Source of the DNA: Roseovarius sp.
GTDB taxonomy: Bacteria > Pseudomonadota > Alphaproteobacteria > Rhodobacterales > Rhodobacteraceae
DNA: 64,000 nt
NCBI GenBank assembly: GCA_014359765.1
Contig: JACIYT010000010.1
Span: forward strand, 1 to 64,000
Reading direction: 5' to 3'
This document shows, in pieces, positions 4,110-26,246 of the stretch; the first letter of the stretch is position 1, and the number at the start of each line of letters is the position of its first letter. A program made the position numbers and the translations under genes. The notes under the pieces were generated by a model, which was given only the letters and a program-made list of their open reading frames with translations, did not search any database and was not told the origin of the DNA.

Positions 4110-4481
4110 TTATTTTCCGTCGGGAATAGCGCGCAGGCGGGCCTCCAGCGCCGCAAGCTGCGAAGCCCCGGCGCGGGCGGCCTCTTCCTCGAACGCGCGG
4201 TAAAGCCTCAGCACCTCGCGCCCGGCCTCGGTCAGCGCCGCGCCGCCCCCGCCCGGCCCGCCGCGTGTGCTCTCGACCAGAGGCGCGCGGAACATGGCAT
4301 TGAGCGTGCCCACCAGCTCCCAGGCGCGCTTGTAGCTCATCCCCATCTCGCGCCCCGCCCCCGCGATCGAGCCGCAACGCGCGATCCGCTCCAGAAGCTC
4401 GGCCTTGCCAGGGCCGATCATTTCGTCTTCGCCAAAGACGATGCGGATGCGGAGCCGGGGGGGTCTGGTGTCGTCGCGCAT
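4110..4481 (-). CDS. modE: ModE-like molybdenum-responsive regulator, DNA-binding domain only
   Basis: A 123-residue protein matching the N-terminal winged-helix domain of ModE (LysR-type helix-turn-helix, about residues 18-75). It contains the conserved core LLERIARCGSIAGAGREMGMSYKRAWELV and a glycine-rich turn before the wing (GGPGGGGAALTEAGREVL). It ends where two-domain ModE proteins continue into the molybdate-binding TOBE domains, so it cannot sense molybdate by the usual route. The rest is helical, probably for dimerisation. The start at 4481 skips an upstream open frame that runs into the rpoC terminator. Confidence 0.85.
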   Translation of the reverse strand: MRDDTRPPRLRIRIVFGEDEMIGPGKAELLERIARCGSIAGAGREMGMSYKRAWELVGTLNAMFRAPLVESTRGGPGGGGAALTEAGREVLRLYRAFEEEAARAGASQLAALEARLRAIPDGK

Positions 4482-4549
4482 GGCGCGATCTTCGGGTGCC
4501 GGGCACGAACATGCAAGCCTCCCGGCAGCCGGGCAACGCCCGAAAGACA

Positions 4550-4580
4550 ACAGGCCCGGCCATTCGCTGGCCGGGCCTGT
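4550..4580 (-). terminator. rho-independent terminator of the rpoBC operon
   Basis: A perfect 13-base-pair GC-rich stem with a 5-base loop lies 25 bases after the rpoC stop. On the minus strand it is followed by the T-rich tract TTGTCTTTC. Confidence 0.9.
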
Positions 4581-4605
4581 CGATGTCGCGCGTTCCGCCC
4601 GACGA

Positions 4606-7600
4606 TCAATCGTCGCGGTTTTCCGGCGTGTCCACGAAGTTGTCGAACACGTCATCGGCGCTCACGTCGTCGTCGATGACCGGGGCGGCGAGCGCGGCCG
4701 CGGCCGCAGCCTCCTCGCGGCGCGCCTCGATCACGATATTGTCGCGTGCCTGCGCGACCCTCCGGATTTCCTGCGTCGCGCGCCCCGTGCCCGCCGGGAT
4801 CAGCCGCCCGACGATCACGTTTTCCTTGAGGCCCACGAGCTTGTCACGCTTGCCCTGAACCGACGCCTCGGTGAGCACGCGCGTCGTCTCCTGGAAGGAG
4901 GCCGCCGAGATGAACGACCGGGTCTGGAGCGATGCCTTGGTGATGCCCAGCAGGATCGGCTCGCCGGTGGCGGGACGACCGCCCTTGGCCTCCACCTTGG
5001 CATTGGCCTCGTCGAGCTCGATCTTGTCCACATGCTCGCCCTTGAGAAGGGTGGTGTCGCCCGAATCGCGGATCTCCCATTTCTGGAGCATCTGGCGGAC
5101 GATCACCTCGATATGCTTGTCGTTGATCTTCACGCCCTGGAGACGATAGACCTCCTGCACCTCGTCGATCATGTAATTGGCCAGCGCCTCGACCCCCATG
5201 ATGGCGAGGATGTCATGCGGCGCCGGGTTGCCGTCCATGATGTAATCGCCCCGCTGGACGAAATCGCCCTCCTGGACCGGAATGTGCTTGCCCTTGGGGA
5301 CCATGTATTCGACCGGCGCGCGGCTTTCGTCCACGGGCTCGATGGTGATGCGGCGCTTGTTCTTGTAGTCCTTGCCAAAGCGCACATAGCCATCGGTCTC
5401 GGCGATGATCGCGTGATCCTTGGGGCGGCGCGCCTCGAACAGTTCCGCCACCCGCGGAAGACCGCCGGTGATGTCCTTGGTCTTGCCGCCCTCGCGCGGG
5501 ATGCGCGCGATGACATCGCCGGCCTCGACCTTCTGCCCGTCCTCGACCGACAGGATCGCATCCACCGACATCGCATAGGTCACCGGGTTTCCGGCATCGT
5601 TGCGCACCGGCTCACCATCCTCGCCCACGATGAAGATCTCCGGCTTGAGCTCGTTGCCACGCGGTGCCGCGCGCCAGTCGGTCACGACCTTCTGGGTCAT
5701 GCCGGTGGCCTCGTCGGTCACCTCGCGCACCGACAGGCCGGTGATCAGATCGACGAATTTCGCCGTGCCCGATTTCTCGGCGAGGATCGGCAGGGTGTAG
5801 GGATCCCATTCCAGGAGCTTCTGGCCGCGCACCACCTTGTCACCCTCGGCGACGAACAGCCGGGTGCCATATCCGACCTTGTGGCTGGCCAGCTCAACCC
5901 CGGCCTCGGAGCGGATCACCACCTTCATGTTGCGCCCCATGACCAGCGTCTCACCCCGCGAATTGACGAGGATCTGCGGGTTCTCGAAGGCGATGACGCC
6001 CTCCTGGCTCGACTCGAGGAAGGATTTCTGCCCGCCCTGCGCAACCCCGCCGATATGGAAGGTCCGCATGGTGAGCTGGGTGCCCGGCTCGCCGATCGAC
6101 TGGGCGGCGATGATCCCCACCGCCTCGCCGATATTGACCAGCGTGCCCCGCGCCAGATCGCGCCCGTAGCAGGTGGCGCAGACCCCATCCTCGGCCTCGC
6201 AGGTGAGCGGCGAGCGCAGGCGCAGCGACTGCACCGCGGACTCCTCGAGCGCATCGGCCATGCGCTCGTCGATGAGCTGGCCCTTGCGCACGAGAACGGC
6301 GCCGGTTTCGGGATCGACGATATCCTCCGCGGCCACCCGGCCAAGGCTGCGCTCGGCCAGCGAGGCGACCACCTCGCCGTCGTTCACCGCCGCCTCGACG
6401 GTGACGGCGCGCTCGGTCCCGCAATCGTGCTCGCGCACGATGCAGTCCTGCGCCACGTCCACCAGACGCCGCGTCAGGTAGCCCGAGTTGGCGGTCTTGA
6501 GCGCAGTATCCGAGAGGCCCTTGCGCGCGCCATGGGTCGAGTTGAAATATTCGAGAACGGTCAGACCTTCCTTGAAGTTCGAGATGATCGGCGTCTCGAT
6601 GATGTCGCCATTGGGCTTGGCCATCAGGCCGCGCATCCCGCCCAGCTGCTTCATCTGCGTGACCGAGCCGCGCGCGCCCGAATGGGCCATCATGTAGACG
6701 CTGTTGGGCTCCATCTCGGCGCCGGTCTCGTCGCGTCGCTCGGCCGAAATGGCCGCCATCATCGCCTCGGTGACCTTGTCGTTGCACTTCGACCAGGCAT
6801 CGACGACCTTGTTGTATTTCTCGCCCTGGGTGATGAGGCCGTCCATGTATTGCTGCTCGAAGCCCTTCACCAGCGCGCGCGTCTCCTCGACGATCGGCCA
6901 TTTCTCCTCGGGGATCACCATGTCGTCCTTGCCAAAGGAAATCCCCGCGCGGAACGCTTCGCGGAAGCCCATGGTCATGATCTGGTCACAGAAGATGACC
7001 GATTCCTTCTGGCCGCAATAGCGGTAAACCGTGTCGATGACCTGCTGCACCTCCTTCTTGCGCAGGAGGCGGTTCACGAGGCTGAACGGGGCCTTGGCAT
7101 TGGGCGGCAGCAGCGCGCCGAGCTTGGCGCGGCCCGGCGTGGTCTCGACGCGGACGAAGGTCTCGTTGCCCTCGTCGTCGATCTGCGGCACCCGCACCGT
7201 GACCTTGCTGTGCAGATGCACCTCGCCGGCGTCGAGCGCGTGCTGCACCTCCTCGAGCGAGGCAAAGACCTTGCCCTCGCCCTTCATGCCCTCGCGCATC
7301 AGCGTGACATAATAGAGGCCGAGCACCATGTCCTGCGACGGCACGATGATCGGGGCGCCGTTGGCGGGCGACAGCACGTTGTTGGTGGACATCATCAGCA
7401 CCCGCGCCTCGAGCTGCGCCTCGAGGCTGAGCGGGACGTGCACGGCCATCTGGTCGCCGTCGAAATCGGCGTTGAAGGCGGCGCAGACCAGCGGGTGAAG
7501 CTGGATCGCCTTGCCCTCGATCAGGATCGGCTCGAACGCCTGGATGCCCAGACGGTGCAGCGTCGGCGCACGGTTGAGCATGACGGGATGTTCGCGAATC

Positions 7601-8853
7601 ACCTCGTCGAGGATATCCCAGACCTCCGGACGCTCCTTCTCGACGAGCTTCTTGGCCTGCTTGACGGTGGAGGAATACCCCTTGGCCTCGAGCCGCGAAT
7701 AGATGAACGGCTTGAACAGCTCGAGCGCCATCTTTTTCGGCAGCCCGCATTGATGCAGCTTGAGCTCCGGGCCCGTCACGATCACCGAACGGCCCGAGAA
7801 ATCGACCCGCTTGCCCAGAAGGTTCTGGCGGAAACGGCCCTGCTTGCCCTTGAGCATGTCCGAGAGCGATTTGAGCGGGCGCTTGTTGGCGCCGGTGATG
7901 ACGCGGCCGCGGCGGCCGTTGTCAAAGAGCGCGTCCACCGCCTCCTGCAACATCCGCTTTTCGTTGCGCACGATGATGTCGGGCGCGCGCAGCTCGATCA
8001 GCCGCTTGAGGCGGTTGTTGCGGTTGATCACGCGGCGATAGAGATCGTTGAGATCGGAGGTGGCGAAGCGCCCCCCGTCGAGCGGCACCAGCGGCCGCAG
8101 TTCGGGCGGAATGACCGGCAGCACGGTCAGCACCATCCATTCCGGGCGGTTGCCCGATTCGATGAAGCTCTCGACCACCTTGAGGCGCTTGATGATCTTC
8201 TTGGGCTTCAATTCGCCGGTGGCTTCCTTGAGCTCCTCGCGCAGCCGCTCGGCCTCGGCCTCGAGGTCGATATTGGCGAGCATCTCGCGGATCGCCTCGG
8301 CGCCGATATTGGCGGTGAAGGCGTCCATGCCATAGGCGTCCTGCGCGTCCATGAACTCTTCTTCCGACAGCATCTGACCATAGGTCAGGTCGGTCAGGCC
8401 CGGCTCGATCACGACGTAATTCTCGAAATAGAGCACCCGCTCCAGATCGCGCAGCGTCATGTCGAGCATGAGGCCGATGCGCGACGGCAGGGATTTCAGA
8501 AACCAGATATGCGCGCAGGGCGCGGCCAGCTCGATATGGCCCATGCGCTCGCGCCGGACCTTCTGGAGCGTTACCTCGACGCCGCATTTCTCGCAGACGA
8601 CGCCGCGATATTTCATGCGCTTGTATTTGCCGCAGAGGCATTCGTAATCCTTGATCGGACCGAAGATGCGCGCGCAGAAGAGGCCGTCACGCTCGGGCTT
8701 GAACGTGCGGTAGTTGATCGTCTCGGGCTTCTTGATCTCGCCATAGGACCACGAGAGGATACGCTCGGGGCTGGCAAGGCTGATCTTGATCTCGTCGAAG
8801 ACCTTGGCAGGGGCCACCGGGTTGAACGGGTTGTTGGTGAGTTCCTGGTTCAT
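4606..8853 (-). CDS. rpoC: DNA-directed RNA polymerase subunit beta'
   Basis: The 1415-residue product is full length for the alphaproteobacterial beta' subunit, the half of the polymerase that holds the catalytic magnesium. Visible landmarks are the N-terminal zinc site (Cys72, Cys74, Cys87, Cys90), the active-site motif NADFDGDQM near residue 465, and the second zinc cluster with [13 protein letters not shown] before the C-terminal region. The ATG at 8853 follows an AAGGA ribosome binding site. It is co-transcribed with rpoB, from which it is separated by 93 bases holding two strong hairpins. The acidic, alanine-rich C-terminal tail ([15 protein letters not shown]) is normal for the group. 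Confidence 0.98.
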
Positions 8854-8892
8854 TGTCTGATCCTTGAAGGCTGGCAGAGGGGGGGACGGGGG

Positions 8893-8944
8893 CCCGGATT
8901 TTTCTCCGAAAAATCCGGGGCAGAATTTTCGATGAAAATTCTGC
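8893..8944. repeat. two consecutive hairpins in the rpoB-rpoC spacer
   Basis: Hairpin 1 has 11-base arms at 8893-8903 and 8909-8919 (CCCGGATTTTT type). Hairpin 2 has 11-base arms at 8920-8930 and 8934-8944 (GCAGAATTTTC type) and abuts hairpin 1 directly. Both are perfect. They occupy most of the spacer and end 2 bases before the rpoB stop codon region. Short AT-cored stems of this kind recur between genes in Rhodobacteraceae. A role in RNA processing or in adjusting rpoC expression is inferred. Confidence 0.75.
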
Positions 8945-8946
8945 GC

Positions 8947-13083
<4,137 letters not shown>

Positions 13084-13261
13084 GTCGATCTTACCTTTCG
13101 TGTCTCACCGGCCACGGTCGCTGTCGGGCACCAGCGCCGCGAGCCTCAGAGAGGGCGGGGGCGATCCATTCCCGGCCGTCGTCCCGATGACGGCCTCCCG
13201 ATCGCGTGAACCTCGCCTGAGAGAACCCCCGGCACGCGCGGGGCCTCTCCGAGACAGGTTC

Positions 13262-13291
13262 GGCCAGACCCGGGATACCCCGGATCTGGCC
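13262..13291 (-). terminator. attenuator-like hairpin between rplL and rpoB
   Basis: A GGCCAGA/CCGGG stem (12 of 13 positions paired) lies about 32 bases after the rplL stop and has no strong T tract. A leaky terminator here that lowers rpoBC relative to ribosomal protein synthesis is known in E. coli; the same role here is inferred from position. Confidence 0.6.
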
Positions 13292-13322
13292 TTGTCGCAT
13301 CATTCTGCCCGGCGGGCAGCGA

Positions 13323-13706
13323 TCACTTGAGCTCGACCTCGGCGCCGGCTGCTTCCAGCTTGCCCTTGATCTCTTCGGCTTCGGCCTTGGAAACCTGCTC
13401 CTTGACGGCCTTGCCGCCGGCTTCCACCAGGTCCTTGGCTTCCTTGAGGCCAAGGCCGGTGATGGCGCGGACTTCCTTGATGACGTTGATCTTCGACGCA
13501 CCGGCCGATTTCAGGATCACGTCGAATTCGGTCTGCTCTTCGGCAGCCGCGCCACCGGCATCGCCCGCGGCGGGGCCGGCGACCATGACAGCACCGCCGG
13601 CGGCGGGCTCGATGCCATACTCATCCTTCAGGATGGTTTTCAGTTCCTGTGCTTCGAGAAGGGTCAGATTGACAATCTCTTCCGCGAGTTTCTTCAGATC
13701 AGCCAT
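13323..13706 (-). CDS. rplL: 50S ribosomal protein L7/L12
   Basis: A 127-residue acidic stalk protein. The N-terminal dimerisation helices ([22 protein letters not shown]) are followed by an alanine/glycine-rich hinge around residues 40-55. The globular C-terminal domain has the elongation-factor binding surface ([24 protein letters not shown]). Length and order are normal. It is transcribed after rplJ with a 71-base gap. Four L7/L12 copies bind L10 on the ribosome. Confidence 0.97.
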
Positions 13707-13777
13707 TGTTCAGCTCTTTCCGTAACTTGATGTGTTCCAACGTCGGGGACGACCCCACACGCGTGTGACAGTTTGCC

Positions 13778-14296
13778 TTATGCCGCCTCGGCCTTTTCCT
13801 CGATCGTCGAGAGGATGCCCGCGATATTCGAGGCAGGTGCGCCAATGGCCCCGGCGATGTTCGAGGCAGGCGCGCCGATGCAGCCGACGATGGAGGCGAT
13901 AAGCTCCTCGCGCGACGGCATCTTCGACACGGCCTCGACACCGGCCCGGTCCAGAGCCGTGCCACCCATTGCCCCGCCAAGGATCTCGAACTTCTTGTTT
14001 TCCTTGGCGAAATCCTCGGCCACCTTGGCTGCTGCCACGGGGTCCTCGGAGAAGGTGAGCACGGTCATGCCCGAGAGGTAGTCGGCGATGCTTGCGCAGG
14101 GCTTTCCCTCAAGGGCGATCTTGGCGAGCCTGTTCTTGGCAACACGAACCGATGCCTCTGCCGCACGGGCGCGGGCACGAAGGTTCTGCATTTCGGCAAC
14201 TGTCAGACCCGTGTAGTGGGCAACCACCACGACGCCAGAGCTTTCGAAGATCTGGCCGAGTTCCTCGACCACTTTCTCTTTCTGGGCTCTATCCAC
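13778..14296 (-). CDS. rplJ: 50S ribosomal protein L10, GTG start
   Basis: A 172-residue stalk-base protein that anchors L7/L12 and represses its own mRNA. The core [20 protein letters not shown] and the following KNRLAKIAL are characteristic. The GTG at 14296 is chosen over an upstream ATG at 14440 because it begins directly with [12 protein letters not shown], as in homologues, and has GGAG 6 bases upstream; the extra N-terminus would be the leader RNA. Near the C-terminus the segment [21 protein letters not shown] is a local duplication of an 11-residue unit. Confidence 0.96.
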
Positions 14297-14450
14297 AGTT
14301 TCACTCCAAATTTGGGGGTTTCCCCCCGGCTCAGGTCTGCCACCCCCGAGGGGGCGGCGTTCGGGTCCAAAACAAGGGGTCCCGAGGCCAAGACCACCCG
14401 AGGAAAGATGCCCCGGCTGGAATCTCATCTCGTTCCCCATCTCGGGAAGG
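14297..14450 (-). ncRNA. probable L10 leader (autoregulatory 5' untranslated region of rplJL)
   Basis: About 150 bases separate the probable promoter from the rplJ start. The leader includes a perfect CCCCC/GGGGG hairpin at about 14341-14357 and further pyrimidine/purine complementarity near the start codon. L10 or L10(L7/L12)4 binding to such leaders is known in bacteria. I have not modelled the fold. Confidence 0.45.
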
Positions 14451-16852: not shown

Positions 16853-16928
16853 TGGCAGGGGCAGCAGGGCTCGAACCCGCGACCTACGGTTTTGGAGACC
16901 GTCGCTCTACCAGCTGAGCTATACCCCT
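16853..16928 (-). tRNA. tRNA-Trp (anticodon CCA)
   Basis: A complete 76-base cloverleaf on the minus strand: acceptor stem AGGGGTA paired with TGCCCCT, D arm GCTCAGCTGGTAGAGC, anticodon loop TCTCCAAAA with CCA, T loop GGTTCGAGCCC, and an encoded 3' CCA. Its position directly upstream of secE-nusG is conserved in the group. Confidence 0.97.
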
Positions 16929-17285: not shown

Positions 17286-17620
17286 ATGAATGATGGCCTC
17301 ATGCGAACGCGCATCGGCCATATGATCCTGTCTGCCCTGCTCGTCCTGGGGCTGAGCCTCTCGGGCCTCGCCGGGGGCTACGCCCATGGCCGAACCGGGG
17401 CGGGGCAGATGGAGGTGGTGATCTGCGCCGATGGCGAGGCGCGCAGCGTGGTGATCGATGCGCAGGGCGTGCCGGTCGATCCGGGCGACCCCTGCCGGCG
17501 CAGCTCCTGCCCCGATTGCATCTCCGTCAAAGGCATCGCACCGCCGCCCGATGCCGCGCTTTCTGGCCACACTTTCGCCCGCTGCCGCGCCGCGCCTCGG
17601 CCCGGACCTCGGCCGCGGCC
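17286..17620 (+). pseudogene. 5' part of a small exported protein gene (DUF2946-like), 3' end lost into nosZ
   Basis: From the ATG at 17286 or 17301 the frame encodes an N-terminal hydrophobic segment ([17 protein letters not shown]), then a short periplasmic-looking domain with [17 protein letters not shown] and CRRSSCPDC. This resembles small DUF2946-type proteins often found near copper or heme genes; the family call is tentative. After about residue 100 the sequence becomes proline/arginine rich and runs over the start of NosZ homology in a different frame, so its natural end appears to be missing. No good ribosome binding site is seen at either ATG. Confidence 0.5.
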
Positions 17621-19051
17621 CAGGCCCATGTGGGCCCGGGCGAACTGGACGAATACTATGGCTTCTGGTCCTCGGGCCAGACCGGCGAGGTGCGAATCCT
17701 CGGCGTGCCGTCCATGCGCGAACTGATGCGGGTGCCCGTGTTCAACACCTGCTCGGCCACCGGCTGGGGGATCACCAACGAATCCCGCGCCATCATGAAC
17801 GGCAAGCTGACCGAGAAGACAAAGGCCTACATGGCAGCGAACGGCCTGGAGGTGCTGCCCAATGGTGATTTGCACCACGTCCACATGTCCTTCACCGAGG
17901 GCAAGTATGACGGTCGCTTCCTGTTCATGAACGACAAGGCCAATACCCGCGTCGCGCGCGTCCGCTGTGACGTGATGAAATGCGACGCCATTCTCGAAAT
18001 CCCCAATGCCAAGGCGATCCACGGCCTGCGGCCCCAGAAATGGCCGCGCACCAACTACGTCTTCGCGAACGGCGAGGACGAGGGGCCGATGGTCAACGAT
18101 GGCCAGATCCTGGACGAGCCTGACAAGTATGTGAACTTCTACACCGCCATCGACGCCGACACGATGGAGGTCGCCTGGCAGGTGATGGTCACGGGCAACC
18201 TCGACAACACCGATGCCGACTATGAGGGCAAGTGGGCCTTCGCGACCTCCTACAACTCGGAAATGGGGATGACCCTGCCCGACATGACGGCGAGCGAGAT
18301 GGACCATGTCGTGGTCTTCAATCTCGCCGAGATCGAGCGCGGCATCGCCGAGGGGGACTTCATCGAGCTGAACGGCGTCAAGGTGATCGACGGGCGCAAG
18401 GGGGTGAACAGGAAATACACCCGCTACATCCCGATCCCCAACAACCCGCATGGCTGCAACATGGCCCCCGACCGGATCCACCTGTGCATCGCCGGCAAGC
18501 TGTCGCCCACCGTCAGCGTGATCGACGTGCGGAGGCTGGACGCGTATTTCGAGGATGACAGCCTCGATCCGCGCTATCCCGTGGTGGCCGAGCGGGAGTT
18601 GGGCCTGGGGCCGCTGCACACCGCCTTCGACGGAAAGGGCAACGCCTACACCACGCTCTTCCTCGACAGTCAGGTCGTGTTCTGGAACATCGAACGCGCC
18701 GTGCGCGCCCATAACGGCGAGGATGTCGATCCGATCATCTCCAAGACCGACGTGCACTATCAACCCGGCCACAACTCCACCACAATGGGCGAGACGCTGG
18801 ACGCGGACGGCAAGTATTTCGTCTCGATGAACAAGTTCTCGAAGGACCGCTTCCTCAATGTCGGCCCGCTCAAGCCCGAGAACGAACAGCTTTTCGTCAT
18901 CGACGGCGAACGGCTGCATCTGGTGCATGACGGGCCCACCTTCGCCGAGCCGCACGACTCGATCCTCGTTCACCGCTCGGTGGTCAACCCCGTCCATGTC
19001 TGGGACCACAACGATCCGATGTGGGCCGCGGCCCGGGCGCAGGCCGAGGCC
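17606..19051 (+). pseudogene. nosZ: nosZ, nitrous-oxide reductase, truncated at both ends
   Basis: From [24 protein letters not shown] the frame matches the seven-bladed propeller domain of NosZ, which reduces N2O to N2 in the periplasm. The histidine-containing blocks that ligate the CuZ cluster are all present: [47 protein letters not shown] and FAEPHDSI. The Tat signal and N-terminus are missing. The sequence stops matching after [15 protein letters not shown], exactly where the linker to the C-terminal CuA domain should begin. The CuA domain, essential for electron entry, is absent, and the frame runs on into NosY without a stop. No usable start codon or ribosome binding site precedes it. 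Confidence 0.9.
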
Positions 19052-19837
19052 CGCATCGCGCTCCGCAATCGCTGGGTCGCGATCGCCGTGGCGCTGATGG
19101 CGCTGTTTTCGATGGTGCTGTCGGCCACCGGCAGCGCCCCCACAGGCACGCTCGGTGCCGACCGGCTGTCGGTGACGGTCGCGAGCCTCACCAGCCTCGC
19201 CGTCTATCTGGTGCCACTCGTGGCACTCCTGATGGCCTTCGACGCGGTGGCAGGCGAGGTCGAGCGCGGCACACTGCCCCTCGTGCTGACCTATCCGGTC
19301 AGCCGCGCCGAGCTGATCCTCGGCAAGTTCCTCGCCCATATCGCGGTGCTCGCGCTGGCTGTGGCGGCAGGCTACGGCATCGCCGCGGCGGCGGCGATCT
19401 GGGCCGATCCGCGGGCACAGGCGGGGCTGCCGGCGCTGTGGCGGCTGGGCTGGACCTCGGTGCTGCTCGGCGCGACCTTCCTCGGCATCGGCTATGCGCT
19501 CTCGGCCGTGGCCAGGCGGCCCGGGGCGGCCGCGGGGCTGGCGATCGGGCTGTGGCTGGTGCTGATCGTCCTCTACGACCTCGGCCTGCTTGCGGCGGTG
19601 GTCGCCGATGGCGGCGGCTGGTTCACCGCCGAGCTCTTTCCATGGCTCCTGCTTGCCAATCCGGCCGACGCGTTCCGCCTCTACAACCTCGCCGCATCGG
19701 AGGCGACTGCCGCCGCCGCCGGCATCGGTGGCGCCGCCAGCGCCATCTCTGCCCCGCTCGCACTGGCCTCGGTCGCCCTCTGGCCGCTGGTCGCGCTTTT
19801 TCTCGCCATCCTCGCCTGCCAAAGGGTCACGCCATGA
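19043..19837 (+). pseudogene. nosY: nosY, copper-ABC-type permease, lacking its N-terminus and fused to nosZ
   Basis: From [22 protein letters not shown] onward the frame matches NosY, the membrane part of the NosDFY machinery that matures the NosZ copper site. About six transmembrane helices and the [20 protein letters not shown] loop are preserved through the normal C-terminus. The first dozen or so residues are missing, together with nosD and nosF, which normally lie between nosZ and nosY. The stop overlaps the nosL start (ATGA), the natural arrangement, so the right-hand side of the deletion is undisturbed. Confidence 0.88.
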
Positions 19838-20418
19838 ACCACGCCCCCAGATACGCGCTTGCCGCTCTCGGGCTGCTCGCGCTCGCGGCCTGCCGCGAGG
19901 AGCTGGCCGAACTGCCTGCCGCCGTCGCAATGACCGGGGATTCGGTGGGCCACTTTTGCCAGATGGGCCTGCTGGAACACCCCGGCCCCAAGGGACAGCT
20001 GCATCTGGCCGGCCTGCCTGACCCGCTGTTCTTCAGCCAGGTGCGCGATGCCATCGCCTATCAGCGCATGCCCGAACAAAGCCGCATGATCGTTGCGATC
20101 CATGTCTCCGACATGGGCGCCGCGGGCGCTGTCTGGGACGATCCCGGCGCCGGGAACTATATCGCCGCCGAGAGCGCCCATTATGTCGTGGGCGCCACCG
20201 TCGCTGGTGGCATGGGCGCGCCCGAGCTGGTCCCGTTCGCCGACCCGGACCGTGCCATGGCCTTTGCCGCCGAACATGGCGGGGACGTGCTGCGCCTTGC
20301 CGACATTCCCGACGCCGCGGTGCTGAGCCCGGTGGAGCTGGAGGGTGGCATCGACGCCGGCGAAGACGCCGATTTCCTCGACCGGCTGCGCACATTTCAG
20401 GAAAAACAGGAGAGCTGA
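19834..20418 (+). CDS. nosL: copper chaperone lipoprotein NosL
   Basis: A 194-residue outer-facing lipoprotein that delivers Cu(I) to apo-NosZ through NosDFY. The signal ends in the lipobox LAAC with Cys20 as the lipid-bearing residue. The metal-binding segment [16 protein letters not shown] near residue 42-57 carries the Cys and Met used by NosL. The NosL core follows ([31 protein letters not shown]). The gene is intact although its client NosZ is not. Start overlaps the nosY stop. Confidence 0.9.
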
Positions 20419-20421
20419 GCC

Positions 20422-21350
20422 ATGCCCACCCGTCGCCGCTTTCTGATCACCGCCGCGGCCGCGGATGCCTGCCCGGGCCTGCCGGCCAAAGCCGCCGCCC
20501 CGCTCACCCGCTGGGACGGGATCGCGCTGGGCGCCCCGGCCTCGATCCATTTCGCCCATCCGCAGGCCGACCGGCTGATCCGAATGGCACTGGCCGAGAT
20601 CGCCCGGCTGGAGGCTGTCTTCAGCCTGCATCGCCCCGACTCGGCGCTCGCGCACCTGAACGCGACCGGCCGGCTGGAGGCGCCGCCCTTCGAGCTGCTG
20701 GAATGCCTGTCGCTCTGCGGCGCCGTCCATGCCGCCAGCGGCGGCGCCTTCGATCCGACCGTGCAGCCCCTCTGGAGCCTCCACGCCGAAAGCCACAGCA
20801 CCGGCCGCACCCCTACCGACCCCGAGATCGCCGCCGCGCTGTCACGCGTTGGCTGGGGGGGGTCCATGCCGATGCCGGCGCCGTCGCCTTCGCTCGCCCC
20901 GGCATGGCGCTGACCCTCAACGGCGTCGCGCAAGGCGTCATCGCCGATCGCGTGGCCGATCTGCTGGCGGCGGAGGGCCTGACCGACATTCTCGTGAACA
21001 CCGGCGAGTTCCGCGCCCTCGGAAGCCATCCCGACGGTTTGCCCTGGCCGCTGCGGCTCGACGATGGCGCCGCCACCCCCGTGCCTCTGCGCGACCGGGC
21101 GCTGGCCAGTTCCGGCGCGCTCGGCACCACCTTCGACACCGAGGGCCGCGTTGGCCACATCCTCGACCCGCGCACCGGCCGGCCCGCCGCACCCCGCTGG
21201 CGCCTGGTCAGCGTGACCGCCCCCCGCGCCGGCCTCGCCGATGCGCTCTCCACCGCGGCCTGCCTGCTGGACGCGGAGGGGATCGAAACGCTCATGGCCG
21301 GATTCCCCGCGGCGCGGCTGGTCGGGCGCGCGAATCTCACCGATACCTGA
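20422..21350 (+). pseudogene. nosX: nosX/apbE-type FMN transferase, frameshifted
   Basis: ApbE-family flavin transferases attach FMN to proteins such as NosR. The N-terminal half (20422-20863) has a Tat-type signal with RRRFLI and the ApbE core ending FDPTVQPLWSLH. The C-terminal half continues in another frame from about 20864 (GAVAFARPGMALTLNGVAQGVIADRVADLL, then LDPRTGRPAAPRWRLVSVTAP) to the stop at 21350. The break coincides with eight G at 20855-20862. One extra G or two fewer would restore a continuous protein of about 309 residues. Whether it is a true mutation, a slippage site or a sequence error cannot be told here. It is the last gene of the nos remnant. Confidence 0.85.
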
Positions 21351-21424
21351 CCCTGCCTGCCATGGGCACAAGCCCCCGGCACCCCGCATGGCGGCGCATG
21401 GCGCGGGATGTCGCGCCTGCGCCC

Positions 21425-22747
21425 TCAGGACCGTCGCAGCAACGCCAGAAGCTGTTGCGAGGGCAAACCGTCCTGCGCCACACCGGCCGCGGCCTGAAAG
21501 GCGCGGATGGCGCTCACCGTGTTCGGCCCCACGATGCCGTCGATCTTTTCCACGGCATATCCCTTGCGTTGCAGCAGGCGCTGCATTTCCATGCGCTCCT
21601 CGAATCCGAGCGCGTCATAGCCGCGCGGCCATTGCCCGGCGATTTCGGGTCCGCCACCGATCCGGTCCGCGAGATGCCCCACCCCGAGCGCATAGGCGTT
21701 GGAATTGTTGTAGCGCTTGATCACGTCGAAATTGGCAAAGACCATGAAGGACGGCCCCGCCGGGCCCGCAGGCTGAAAGATCCGCGCCGCGCCGAAATCG
21801 CGCACCGCCCGCCCGTCGAGCCCCACGACGCCGCGCGCCGCCCAGTCCGAAGGCATCCGCTGCGCATCGCCGAAGGAGGCGCCGCGCGGCACCCGCACCT
21901 CGACCCCCCAGGGCATCCCCTTCTTCCAGCCGAACCGCGCGAGATAGGCGGCGGTGGAGGCGAGCGCGTCGGTGGGGTCGTCGGACCAGATATCGCGCCG
22001 CCCGTCGCCGGTGAAATCCACCGCATAGGCGAGATAGGAGGTCGGCATGAATTGCGTGTGCCCCATCGCCCCCGCCCAGGAGCCGGTCATCCTCTCGGGC
22101 GTGGTATCGCCCGATTGCAGGATCTGGAGCGCGGCGACGAGCTGCTTTTCAAAGAACGCGCCCCGCCGCCCGTCAAAGGCGAGCGTCGCCATGGACTGAA
22201 TGAGCGGCAGGCTGCCGAGGCGCTCGCCATAGCTGCTCTCCATCCCCCAGATCGCCGTGACCACCTCCTTTTCCACGCCGTAATGCGCCTCGATCCGCTC
22301 CAGCGTGCGGCGGTGTTTGCGCAGCGCCTCGCGCCCGTTCCCGACGCGCACGGGCGACACCGCCGAATCGAGATAATCCCAGATCTCGCGGCGGAATTCG
22401 GACTGGTTGCGATCCCGGGCCACCACCTCGGGATCGTAGCGCACGCTGGCAAAGGCGCGATCGTAAACGCGCGGGCCGATCCCCTGGGCCAGCGCGCGTC
22501 CCCGGAACCCGGCGATCCAGCGATCGAATCCCGCGTGCCCGCTGGCGGGTGTGACGCGCGCCGCCGCCTCGGGGCGGGCCTGAGGGCGCAGGCTGCGCAC
22601 CGGGACATCGACCGAGGCCACCGCCGCGGCCGTCACGAGGCCCGAGCCGGGCCGCATCTGCGGGCGCGGCGATTCGCTGACGCTGGCCATGGCGGCCCCG
22701 CCCGCGATCAGGAAAATGCCGAGAATTCCGATATGCGCTGCCTGCAT
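21425..22747 (-). CDS. lytic murein transglycosylase, MltB type, with peptidoglycan-binding domain
   Basis: A 440-residue cell-wall enzyme that cleaves peptidoglycan glycan strands to 1,6-anhydro ends. A signal anchor (about 5-22) is followed by an SLT_2/MltB catalytic domain (about 85-370) with the catalytic glutamate in WGMESSYGERLGSLP and the family blocks GAMGHTQFMPTSYLAYAVDFTGDG and NNSNAYALGVGHLADRI. A C-terminal PG_binding_1 domain (about 385-437) contains LQRKGYAVEKIDGIVGPNTVSAIRAFQ. The ATG at 22747 begins the hydrophobic signal; an upstream in-frame ATG adds an unlikely polar extension. No operon partner. Confidence 0.92.
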   Translation of the reverse strand: MQAAHIGILGIFLIAGGAAMASVSESPRPQMRPGSGLVTAAAVASVDVPVRSLRPQARPEAAARVTPASGHAGFDRWIAGFRGRALAQGIGPRVYDRAFASVRYDPEVVARDRNQSEFRREIWDYLDSAVSPVRVGNGREALRKHRRTLERIEAHYGVEKEVVTAIWGMESSYGERLGSLPLIQSMATLAFDGRRGAFFEKQLVAALQILQSGDTTPERMTGSWAGAMGHTQFMPTSYLAYAVDFTGDGRRDIWSDDPTDALASTAAYLARFGWKKGMPWGVEVRVPRGASFGDAQRMPSDWAARGVVGLDGRAVRDFGAARIFQPAGPAGPSFMVFANFDVIKRYNNSNAYALGVGHLADRIGGGPEIAGQWPRGYDALGFEERMEMQRLLQRKGYAVEKIDGIVGPNTVSAIRAFQAAAGVAQDGLPSQQLLALLRRS

Positions 22748-22927
22748 CGCTCCACCTCTGCCTGCCCGGTGTTCCGCCCGGTATTTTCCCGCATGATAGC
22801 GCGATTGTCGCCATTGCGAAAGCACCGTGCCCCGGCGAGATTATCCTGAGCGCGATCTTGACCGGCGCGCGGGCGGGGGGCATCTCAGGACCGTGCCGCG
22901 CGCGGTCGCCACCTCGGGAGAACGAAA

Positions 22928-23881
<954 letters not shown>

Positions 23882-23884
23882 GCG

Positions 23885-26140
23885 TCACCCGCGCTTGCGC
23901 GCCGCCTTGCGCTTGAGCCTGGCTGCCTTGGCGCGGGCGGCGCCGAGCTTGCGGCGGGGCGGCTTGCCGCGCGATTTCGACGGGCCGCGTGGCACATGCA
24001 CCCCCTCGAGCGCCACCAGATCGAAGGCAAGCCCCCCCGAGACCGGCGCCGCCTCCGCGAGCCGCACCGTCACCCGCTGGCCGAGAGCGATCACGCGCCC
24101 CGTCTCGGCCCCCATCAAGGTGCTGCTGTCGCGGTCGAAATGGAAATATTCCTGCCCCAGCGCACGCATCGGGATGAGGCCATCGGCCCCGGTCTCGTCC
24201 AGCTTCACGAACACGCCAAAGCGCGCGATGCCGCTGATCCGCCCGACGAACTCCTCGCCCAGCCGCTCCGACAGGAAGGCGGCAAGGTAGCGGTCATTGG
24301 TGTCGCGCTCGGCCATCATCGAGCGCCGCTCGGTGTCGGAAATATGCTGCGCGGTCTGCTCCAGCCGTTCGATTTCCTCGGCGCCGAGTCCGTCCTTGCC
24401 CCAGCCATGCGCGGCGATGAGCGCGCGATGCACCACCAGATCGGCATAGCGCCGGATCGGCGAGGTGAAATGCGCATAGGCGCGCAGCGCAAGGCCGAAA
24501 TGCCCGAAATTCTGCGGCGCGTAATAGGCCTGCGTCATCGCGCGAAGGGTGGACATGTTGATGATCTCGGCGTGATCGGTGCCCCTGGCCGCGTGCAGTA
24601 GCGCGTTGAGATGCGCGGTGCGCAGCACCTGCCCCTTGGCCAGCACCAGCCCCGCCGCCTGCGCCACCTCGCGCAAACTGTCGAGCTTTTCGGGGGCGGG
24701 CTCTTCGTGGACGCGGAAGAGCAGCGGCATCTTCCGCGCGATCAGCTCTTCGGCGGCGGCGACATTGGCCAGCACCATGCATTCCTCGATCAGCCGGTGC
24801 GCGTCGAGCCGCTCGGCAAAGCGCACCGATGTGACCTCGCCGGCCTCGCTCAGCACCACCTTGCGCTCGGGCAGGTCGAGATCGAGCGGCTGGCGCCTCT
24901 GGCGCGCCTGCGCGAGCGCCGCATAGGCGGCATAAAGCGGGCGGATGACGGGATCGAGCAGCGGCCCCGCCTTGTCGCCCGGCGCGCCGTCCATCGCCGC
25001 CTGCACCTGTTCATAGGTCAGAGAGGCCGCCGAGCGCATCAGCCCGCGCACGAAACGCTGCCCGGTCTTGTTGCCCTCGGCGTCGATGGTCATGCGCACC
25101 GCGAGACAGGGGCGCGGCACGCCCTCGTGCAGCGAGCACAGATCGCCCGACAGCCGGTCGGGCAGCATCGGCACCACGCGATCCGGGAAATAGGTGGAAT
25201 TGCCGCGCTTGCGCGCCTCGGCATCGAGCGCCGAGCCGGGGCGCACGTAATGGGCGACATCGGCGATGGCGACCCAGATCACATGGCCGCCCGGATTGTC
25301 CGGGTCGTCATCGGCATGGGCGTAAACCGCGTCGTCGTGGTCGCGCGCATCCCAGGGGTCGATGGTGACGAGCGGCAGATCGCGCAGGTCCTCGCGGCCT
25401 TTCAACCCGGCGGGTTTCATCGCGTCCGCCTCGGCGATCACCGCGTCGGGGAAATCGTCGGGGATCCCGTGCTGATGGATGGCGATGAGCGAGACGGCGC
25501 GCGGCGCGGACGGGTTGCCCAGCCGGTCGCGCACCCGCGCGCGCGCCAGCCCGAGCCGCCCCGCAGGCCCCGCCTGTTCGGCCTCCACCAGCTCGCCATC
25601 GAGCGCGCCCCCCGTCGCCTCGGGCGCGACCAGCCATTCGCGCCCCTCGCCCTTGTCGATCGGCACGATGCGCCCGCCCTCGGTGCTCTTGCGGAAGATG
25701 CCCAGCACCTTGCGCGGGCTCACGCCGATGCGCCGGATCAGCCGCGCCTCGTAATGATGCGCCTCGCCGCGCACCTCCTGAAGCCGCGCGAGGATGCGAT
25801 CCCCCTCGCCCAGCGCCGGATCGGCGGCACGTTGCAGCATCAGGATCACCGGCTCGACCCCCTCGCCATGCCATTCGAGCGGGCGCGCCAGCAATTCGCC
25901 ATCCGCCGTCTGGCCCGAGATCTGCACCACGCTCACCGGCGGCAGGCGATCGGGGTCGCGGTAGGTTTTCTTGCGCTTTTCGAGATGACCCTCGGCCTCG
26001 AGCTCGCGCAGCACGCGCTTGAGGTCGATCCGCGACGCGCCCTTGATGCCAAAGGCCTTGGCGATGTCGCGCTTGGAGGTGAGGGTCGGATGGTCGGAAA
26101 TCCATTGCAGGATTTCCGCCTTGGAGGGCAGCTGGCTCAT
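23885..26140 (-). CDS. rnr: ribonuclease R
   Basis: A 751-residue 3'-5' exoribonuclease that degrades structured RNA. An N-terminal winged-helix segment (about 1-75) and cold-shock-like regions precede the RNB catalytic domain (about 245-570). The RNB active site is visible as VTIDPWDARDHDDAVYAH, whose aspartates bind magnesium, and YFPDRVVPMLPDRLS with SPIRRYADLVVHR further on. An S1 domain (about 620-705) and a lysine/arginine-rich tail finish the protein. It converges with the antiporter, leaving a 3-base gap. Start ATG at 26140; no upstream alternative. Confidence 0.95.
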   Translation of the reverse strand: MSQLPSKAEILQWISDHPTLTSKRDIAKAFGIKGASRIDLKRVLRELEAEGHLEKRKKTYRDPDRLPPVSVVQISGQTADGELLARPLEWHGEGVEPVILMLQRAADPALGEGDRILARLQEVRGEAHHYEARLIRRIGVSPRKVLGIFRKSTEGGRIVPIDKGEGREWLVAPEATGGALDGELVEAEQAGPAGRLGLARARVRDRLGNPSAPRAVSLIAIHQHGIPDDFPDAVIAEADAMKPAGLKGREDLRDLPLVTIDPWDARDHDDAVYAHADDDPDNPGGHVIWVAIADVAHYVRPGSALDAEARKRGNSTYFPDRVVPMLPDRLSGDLCSLHEGVPRPCLAVRMTIDAEGNKTGQRFVRGLMRSAASLTYEQVQAAMDGAPGDKAGPLLDPVIRPLYAAYAALAQARQRRQPLDLDLPERKVVLSEAGEVTSVRFAERLDAHRLIEECMVLANVAAAEELIARKMPLLFRVHEEPAPEKLDSLREVAQAAGLVLAKGQVLRTAHLNALLHAARGTDHAEIINMSTLRAMTQAYYAPQNFGHFGLALRAYAHFTSPIRRYADLVVHRALIAAHGWGKDGLGAEEIERLEQTAQHISDTERRSMMAERDTNDRYLAAFLSERLGEEFVGRISGIARFGVFVKLDETGADGLIPMRALGQEYFHFDRDSSTLMGAETGRVIALGQRVTVRLAEAAPVSGGLAFDLVALEGVHVPRGPSKSRGKPPRRKLGAARAKAARLKRKAARKRG

Positions 26141-26246
26141 GGCCCCCGCCTAGCACGGCGCGCGCGCGCCGTCATCCGCGAAAACCGCCCGGCGAGGGCG
26201 CGCGACGCCTCCGTGAAAATCGGGCTCTCGAAAATGAGGGCGATCA

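Follow-up and report, generated by a model that had tools for sequence, protein, structure and literature searches.

A collapsed nitrous oxide reductase gene cluster with an in-frame nosZ-nosY join in Roseovarius sp.

The window analyzed here comprises 64,000 nucleotides of Roseovarius sp. (GCA_014359765.1, contig JACIYT010000010.1, positions 1 to 64,000 of the forward strand) and contains, at 17286-21350, what is left of a nitrous oxide reductase (nos) gene cluster, in which a single open frame runs from nosZ directly into nosY. We consider it very probable that this is a horizontally transferred cluster, recently wrecked by two deletions, which now persists as a pseudogene cluster with no function in the reduction of nitrous oxide (N2O). 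A cluster of the Rhodovulum strictum type would have entered a Roseovarius-lineage genome by horizontal transfer, been held under selection there, and been destroyed afterwards. One deletion of ~2.4 kb would have taken the whole of nosR together with the last part of the gene before it and the twin-arginine translocation (Tat) signal of NosZ, while another of ~2.6 kb would have taken the CuA domain of NosZ, nosD, nosF and the start of nosY, with a join that came out in frame by chance, as happens once in three. The remnant would then consist of the nosZ propeller, nosY, nosL and a frame-broken nosX. We infer this order of events, the origin of both gaps by deletion, and the lack of expression and of an N2O-reducing phenotype from the comparisons described below.

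Surviving genes of the nos cluster

As noticed in the first-pass annotation of this DNA, the NosZ propeller and NosY share one plus-strand frame (17516-19837, 773 aa; a mechanical open frame with a TTG start and the preceding stop at 17291). Residues 28-512 match the Tat-dependent NosZ family TIGR04244 (profile positions 34-517 of 627, 865 bits with a cut-off of 625), and residues 508-766 match ABC2_membrane_2 (PF12679, ABC-2 permease), i.e. NosY, which is 90 and 89% identical to the NosY of two Rhodovulum genomes. One of the two, Rhodovulum strictum DSM 11289 (L032), carries the nearest intact cluster with available DNA, and the other (L177, genome G538) a second intact cluster.

The nosZ fragment (17591-19051, plus strand), delimited by blastn and TIGR04244, starts near the Tat cleavage site and stops where the CuZ propeller ends. 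All six CuZ-ligand motif blocks were found in the frame, as had been claimed. The Tat signal is absent, since likeness to the intact nosZ genes of both Rhodovulum begins at about the cleavage site. So is the CuA domain: the NosZ profile match ends at position 517 of 627 and the window frame matched neither the cupredoxin nor the COX2 family of Pfam, where the intact R. strictum NosZ reaches 27.1 bits for Cupredoxin_1 (cut-off 27) and 21 bits for COX2, just below its cut-off of 22. The nosY fragment (19052-19837, plus strand; PF12679, and by blastn R. strictum 12045 onward) has indeed lost its N-terminus, as stated earlier, but the loss amounts to only about the first 10 residues.

Downstream, nosL (19834-20418, plus strand) is apparently intact (PF05573, 144.7 bits on 19840-20415) and retains the ATGA overlap with nosY at 19834-19837. 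In contrast, nosX (ApbE family; 20422-21350, plus strand) lies in two reading frames: PF02424 is found on both pieces, and tblastn of the R. strictum NosX gives matches in two frames that change at a run of eight G (20855-20862), the only G/C run of at least 8 in the window. The nosZ and nosY of the window look well kept. For nosX, the view that the remaining codons are not degraded fails, and decay has begun, to judge from the nosX frame change, if real, and from changes at near-invariant NosZ sites. In a protein search, the first nosX piece found 43 relatives, which were 43-73% identical, none of them near-identical.

Two gaps relative to intact clusters

Against the R. strictum cluster, blastn resolved the remnant into three collinear pieces: window 17301-17519 on 5281-5499 (76% DNA identity), 17591-19051 on 8007-9467 (89.5%) and 19043-21332 on 12045-14320 (82%). 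The second Rhodovulum cluster splits the window nearly alike, with 17301-17530 at 74% identity. Between the pieces lie a left gap of ~2.4 kb, covering nosR, the Tat signal of NosZ and, ahead of them, the last part of a small gene, and a right gap of ~2.6 kb, covering CuA, nosD, nosF and ~9-10 residues of the NosY start. The frames follow the order nosZ, nosD, nosF, nosY, nosX in all 15 loci checked (14 named loci and L177), and the distance between NosZ and NosY is 2369-2640 bases in 75 of the 80 named loci, the remaining five having no NosY match within the locus DNA compared. Some local alignments extend to residues 546-568; NosY is nonetheless separate in 75 of 75 loci.

Searches of the window's own assembly (2.65 Mb in 41 contigs, 97.27% complete, contamination given as 0) brought up none of the lost genes. 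It has one NosZ place and one NosZ-NosY place; a second intact nos cluster, which would point to a mis-join of two collapsed copies, was looked for and not found. A search for nosD, run without a positive control, gave no match. A search for nosF gave 71 ABC-ATPase matches, none of them close: identities were 26-40%, with 49% in a single short stretch, and the best-scoring match had 35%. Nor was a nosR orthologue found, the sole match being a NosR/NirI-like paralogue with 32% identity and 451 bits, where the NosR cut-off is 1000. The blastn gaps, the end of the profile match and these searches agree with the earlier statement that CuA, nosD, nosF, nosR and the Tat signal are gone.

At the right junction, the nosZ-side and nosY-side blastn pieces overlap by 9 bases (19043-19051, plus strand; with both Rhodovulum clusters). 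The right breakpoint zones of R. strictum have an 8-mer in common and no 9-mer, and its left breakpoint zones have no common word of at least 7 bases, so that deletion by short homology has no support on the left and is no more than possible on the right. The two deletion edges also carry the arms of an imperfect inverted repeat of 32 nt (17591-17622 and 19022-19053, plus strand), in which 26 of 32 positions pair, a value reached by none of 360 random pairs of 50-base zones. The repeat was noticed after the fact, and it is weaker at the matching places of the two intact relatives (21/32 and 20/32).

A second copy of the right join

A protein search with length limits that barred NosY alone returned 2612 proteins from 7998 scored candidates, and the best 120 were examined. 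Among these, P0001 was the only NosZ-NosY join spanning the whole region. It is a 522-aa protein from one contig of 3293 bases, stands for 8 member sequences, and aligns with the window over its whole length, with 7 residue differences in 522 (4 in NosZ, 3 in NosY). Its source entry bears the mark used for proteins of the window, but P0001 is not letter-identical to the window and comes from a contig of 3293 rather than 102,656 bases. At least two distinct sequences therefore carry the right join, though not necessarily from independent samples.

This recurrence bears on the question of whether the remnant is an artefact, in which a short GC-rich sequence common to both sides made the assembler skip a real nosR and nosDF. 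The assembly is a draft of 41 contigs, the GC-rich junctions are tied by the inverted repeat, and the nosX frame changes at a G8 run, all of which would suit such an error. Yet a second contig shows the right join again, with some residues changed, the genes supposedly skipped did not turn up in the rest of an assembly that is 97% complete, and the 9-base overlap is shorter than the words of an assembler, the usual sizes of which exceed 9 bases. We therefore regard an assembly artefact as very improbable.

Apart from the window's own, no NosZ-into-NosY match was found in 100 genomes (41 with a match) or among the matches listed for 394 genomes of the family (113 with a match), both sets including the window's genome; 16 genomes of R. 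strictum's genus (3 with a match) had none either. Some of the matches in the two larger sets are only weak matches to ABC permeases. No description of a NosZ-NosY fusion was found in the titles or abstract starts of the papers that literature searches listed. Three proteins of other genomes (P0002, P0003 and P0025) are single frames that fuse NosY-NosL or a Cu-processing ATPase with NosY-like sequence; neighboring nos genes are fused in them as in the window, but NosZ is not involved.

Horizontal origin of the cluster

The history of the nos block differs from that of its surroundings. In trees of 12 rows each, RpoB, encoded in the left flank of the window, is sister to the metagenome-assembled genome Roseovarius UBA6167 (support 100/99; the UBA6167 row is 26% filled) and groups with Roseovarius ZX-A-9 and Rhodobacteraceae HLUCCO07 with the same support, its union with R. 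strictum being rejected at p-AU 3e-65. For NosZ, the sister is instead R. strictum (100/99), and its clade with two Roseovarius is rejected (p-AU 4e-7). Both flanks of the remnant are closest to genomes of the window's own genus, whereas its NosZ is closest to Rhodovulum; right-flank DNA at ~21420-26188 aligns in two congeners (L165 and L167).

In the two Rhodovulum species, the nos block is 95% identical over 9.7 kb (L032 4598-14331, L177 3172-12905) with flanks that do not align, and NosZ occurs in 2 of 16 genomes of R. strictum's genus, which together suggest that the block moves between lineages. On these comparisons, we read the nos block as horizontally acquired.

A NosZ nearest to Rhodovulum between flanks nearest to the window's own genus is also what would be seen if a real remnant of a Rhodovulum-like organism had been mis-joined into a Roseovarius-lineage contig. 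We hold this to be improbable: the remnant lies inside a contig of 102,656 bases with chromosomal genes on either side, the non-aligning flanks of the 9.7-kb block make it seem mobile in itself, and the assembly is listed with a contamination of 0.

Constraint before and after the loss

With our own implementation of a branch codon model, the ratio of nonsynonymous to synonymous rates (omega) on the window branch of nosZ, nosY and the first nosX piece was 0.032, 0.048 and 0.070, with background values of 0.064, 0.065 and 0.117, respectively. An omega of 1 on the window branch was rejected in all three (2dlnL of 76, 36 and 17), i.e. purifying selection acted over the branch as a whole. As the window-branch omega is low, the loss should be recent relative to the split from Rhodovulum, which agrees with the recent loss proposed in the first-pass annotation.

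The differences between the window and P0001 were used to look at the time after the join. The four differing NosZ sites are conserved in 90.1, 100, 89.3 and 100% of 121 distinct intact rows. Three of the four are thus at least 90% conserved, compared with 4 of 95 differences in 11 row-disjoint close intact pairs and 11 of 173 once every one of the 18 close pairs is counted (a 139-row set with duplicate genomes gave 20 of 253 in 26 pairs). Sites conserved to at least 90% make up 138 of the 258 NosZ sites in the compared span, as neutral change would sample them. The window deviates at four NosZ sites that are at least 97% conserved, and four or more such deviations are found in just 2 of the 121 intact rows. 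The three differing NosY sites are 568, 768 and 769, where 74 of 75 rows have L, 55 of 60 have F and 51 of 60 have R, respectively. These small numbers, which concern the right join only, suggest that constraint was relaxed after the disruption.

Several points weigh against a transferred and then wrecked cluster. The window-branch omega is not above background, and a working chimera would look likewise; NosY does not deviate at conserved sites; and the conserved-site comparison comes down to four sites, at which sequencing error may be responsible for the differences. The nosX frame change is possibly a consensus error, as it falls on the longest G/C run of the window. Finally, the left junction was seen in the window's assembly only; a search for 17286-17726 among ~5.8 billion proteins gave no match and was uninformative, since the window's own protein is absent there too.

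Can the chimera function?

No in-frame export signal was seen by eye on the chimera. The remnant of a small gene upstream (17286-17590, plus strand), identified by blastn as the 5' part of the gene that precedes nosR in Rhodovulum, has a hydrophobic start; it is out of register with nosZ and runs to a stop at 17724-17726. We provisionally call this gene nosC; neither the window remnant nor the R. strictum gene had a Pfam match. By eye, no Shine-Dalgarno-like sequence was found at the usual distance before the in-frame starts at 17516-17800, and AAGGAG precedes the nosZ start of R. strictum. The first-pass annotation described the product as a propeller with a cytoplasmic start attached to a permease, but production of the chimera as a protein is unsupported.

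CuA, NosR, NosD and NosF are needed for electron delivery and for assembly of CuZ. By its gene content, the remnant should not make an N2O reductase, in keeping with the collapsed cluster described earlier. One might still imagine that the chimera is translated and has been retained in a new role, as a CuZ-type or copper-binding protein anchored in the membrane, since its frame is open over 773 aa and in P0001 over 522 aa, and the CuZ motif blocks are retained. The lack of an export signal and of a Shine-Dalgarno-like sequence, the absence of CuA, NosR, NosD and NosF, the differences between the copies at near-invariant NosZ sites, and the absence of NosZ-into-NosY from the other listed genome matches leave hardly any room for such a role.

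Flanking genes and genome context

To the left of the nos remnant lies a core region from rpoB to tRNA-Trp (16853-16928, minus strand; ARAGORN), and left-flank alignment with two compared loci (L161 and L163) stops at 16928. To the right, a chromosomal gene at 21425-22825 (minus strand), presumably a lytic murein transglycosylase-like gene, is 84-85% identical in three congeners. A plus-strand frame of 2934 codons at 4405-13209, antisense to rpoB and further, is probably a shadow frame of GC-rich coding DNA.

In the same assembly, no NirK was found, and no NirS, the sole PF02239 match being a PQQ-associated propeller. NorB was not found either: the members of PF00115, the heme-copper oxidase family, which we take to include NorB, are two, a CtaD-like protein (619.7 bits with a cut-off of 670.75 when part of the protein was scored) and CcoN. 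The strain thus appears to lack the NirS/NirK, NorB and NosZ steps, at 97% completeness. The genome is small for its genus: of 84 genomes that include its own, G017 (2.5 Mb) is the only smaller one listed with a completeness of at least 90%. The NosR/NirI-like paralogue lies on a contig of 10.6 kb (L176, C30; 692-6809) together with an ApbE gene; a phage major capsid gene and an IS5-family transposase are close by. As the genome has no NirS match, the NosR/NirI and ApbE site is perhaps what is left of a former nir cluster.

Comparison with known systems

The remnant would illustrate clearly how the capacity to reduce N2O can be gained by transfer and lost again by deletion. It also carries a caution, because a marker-gene survey based on the nosZ propeller region would miscount this organism as an N2O reducer.

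The window shares its gene order with the clade I nosRZDFYLX clusters of R. strictum and the second Rhodovulum, to which its DNA is 89.5% identical in nosZ and 81-82% in the nosY-nosX stretch. Unlike them, it lacks nosR, the Tat signal, CuA, nosD, nosF and the nosY start, and has nosX in two frames.

Loss of nosZ by decay is of a known kind and already in print for Brucella melitensis. Related reports concern pseudogene proliferation, and not nosZ loss, in decaying coral Ruegeria (PMC13313319), NosZ variation in Rhodanobacter (PMC8809349), and nirK and qnorB pseudogenes in Bacillus (PMC3475470). The Brucella report describes a NosZ pseudogene in eleven B. melitensis genomes (PMC10714718). The case is alike in that a denitrification cluster has lost its last step through a broken nosZ, and differs in that an internal stop codon is reported for B. 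melitensis, whereas the window, in another lineage, has two multi-kilobase deletions and a gene fusion.

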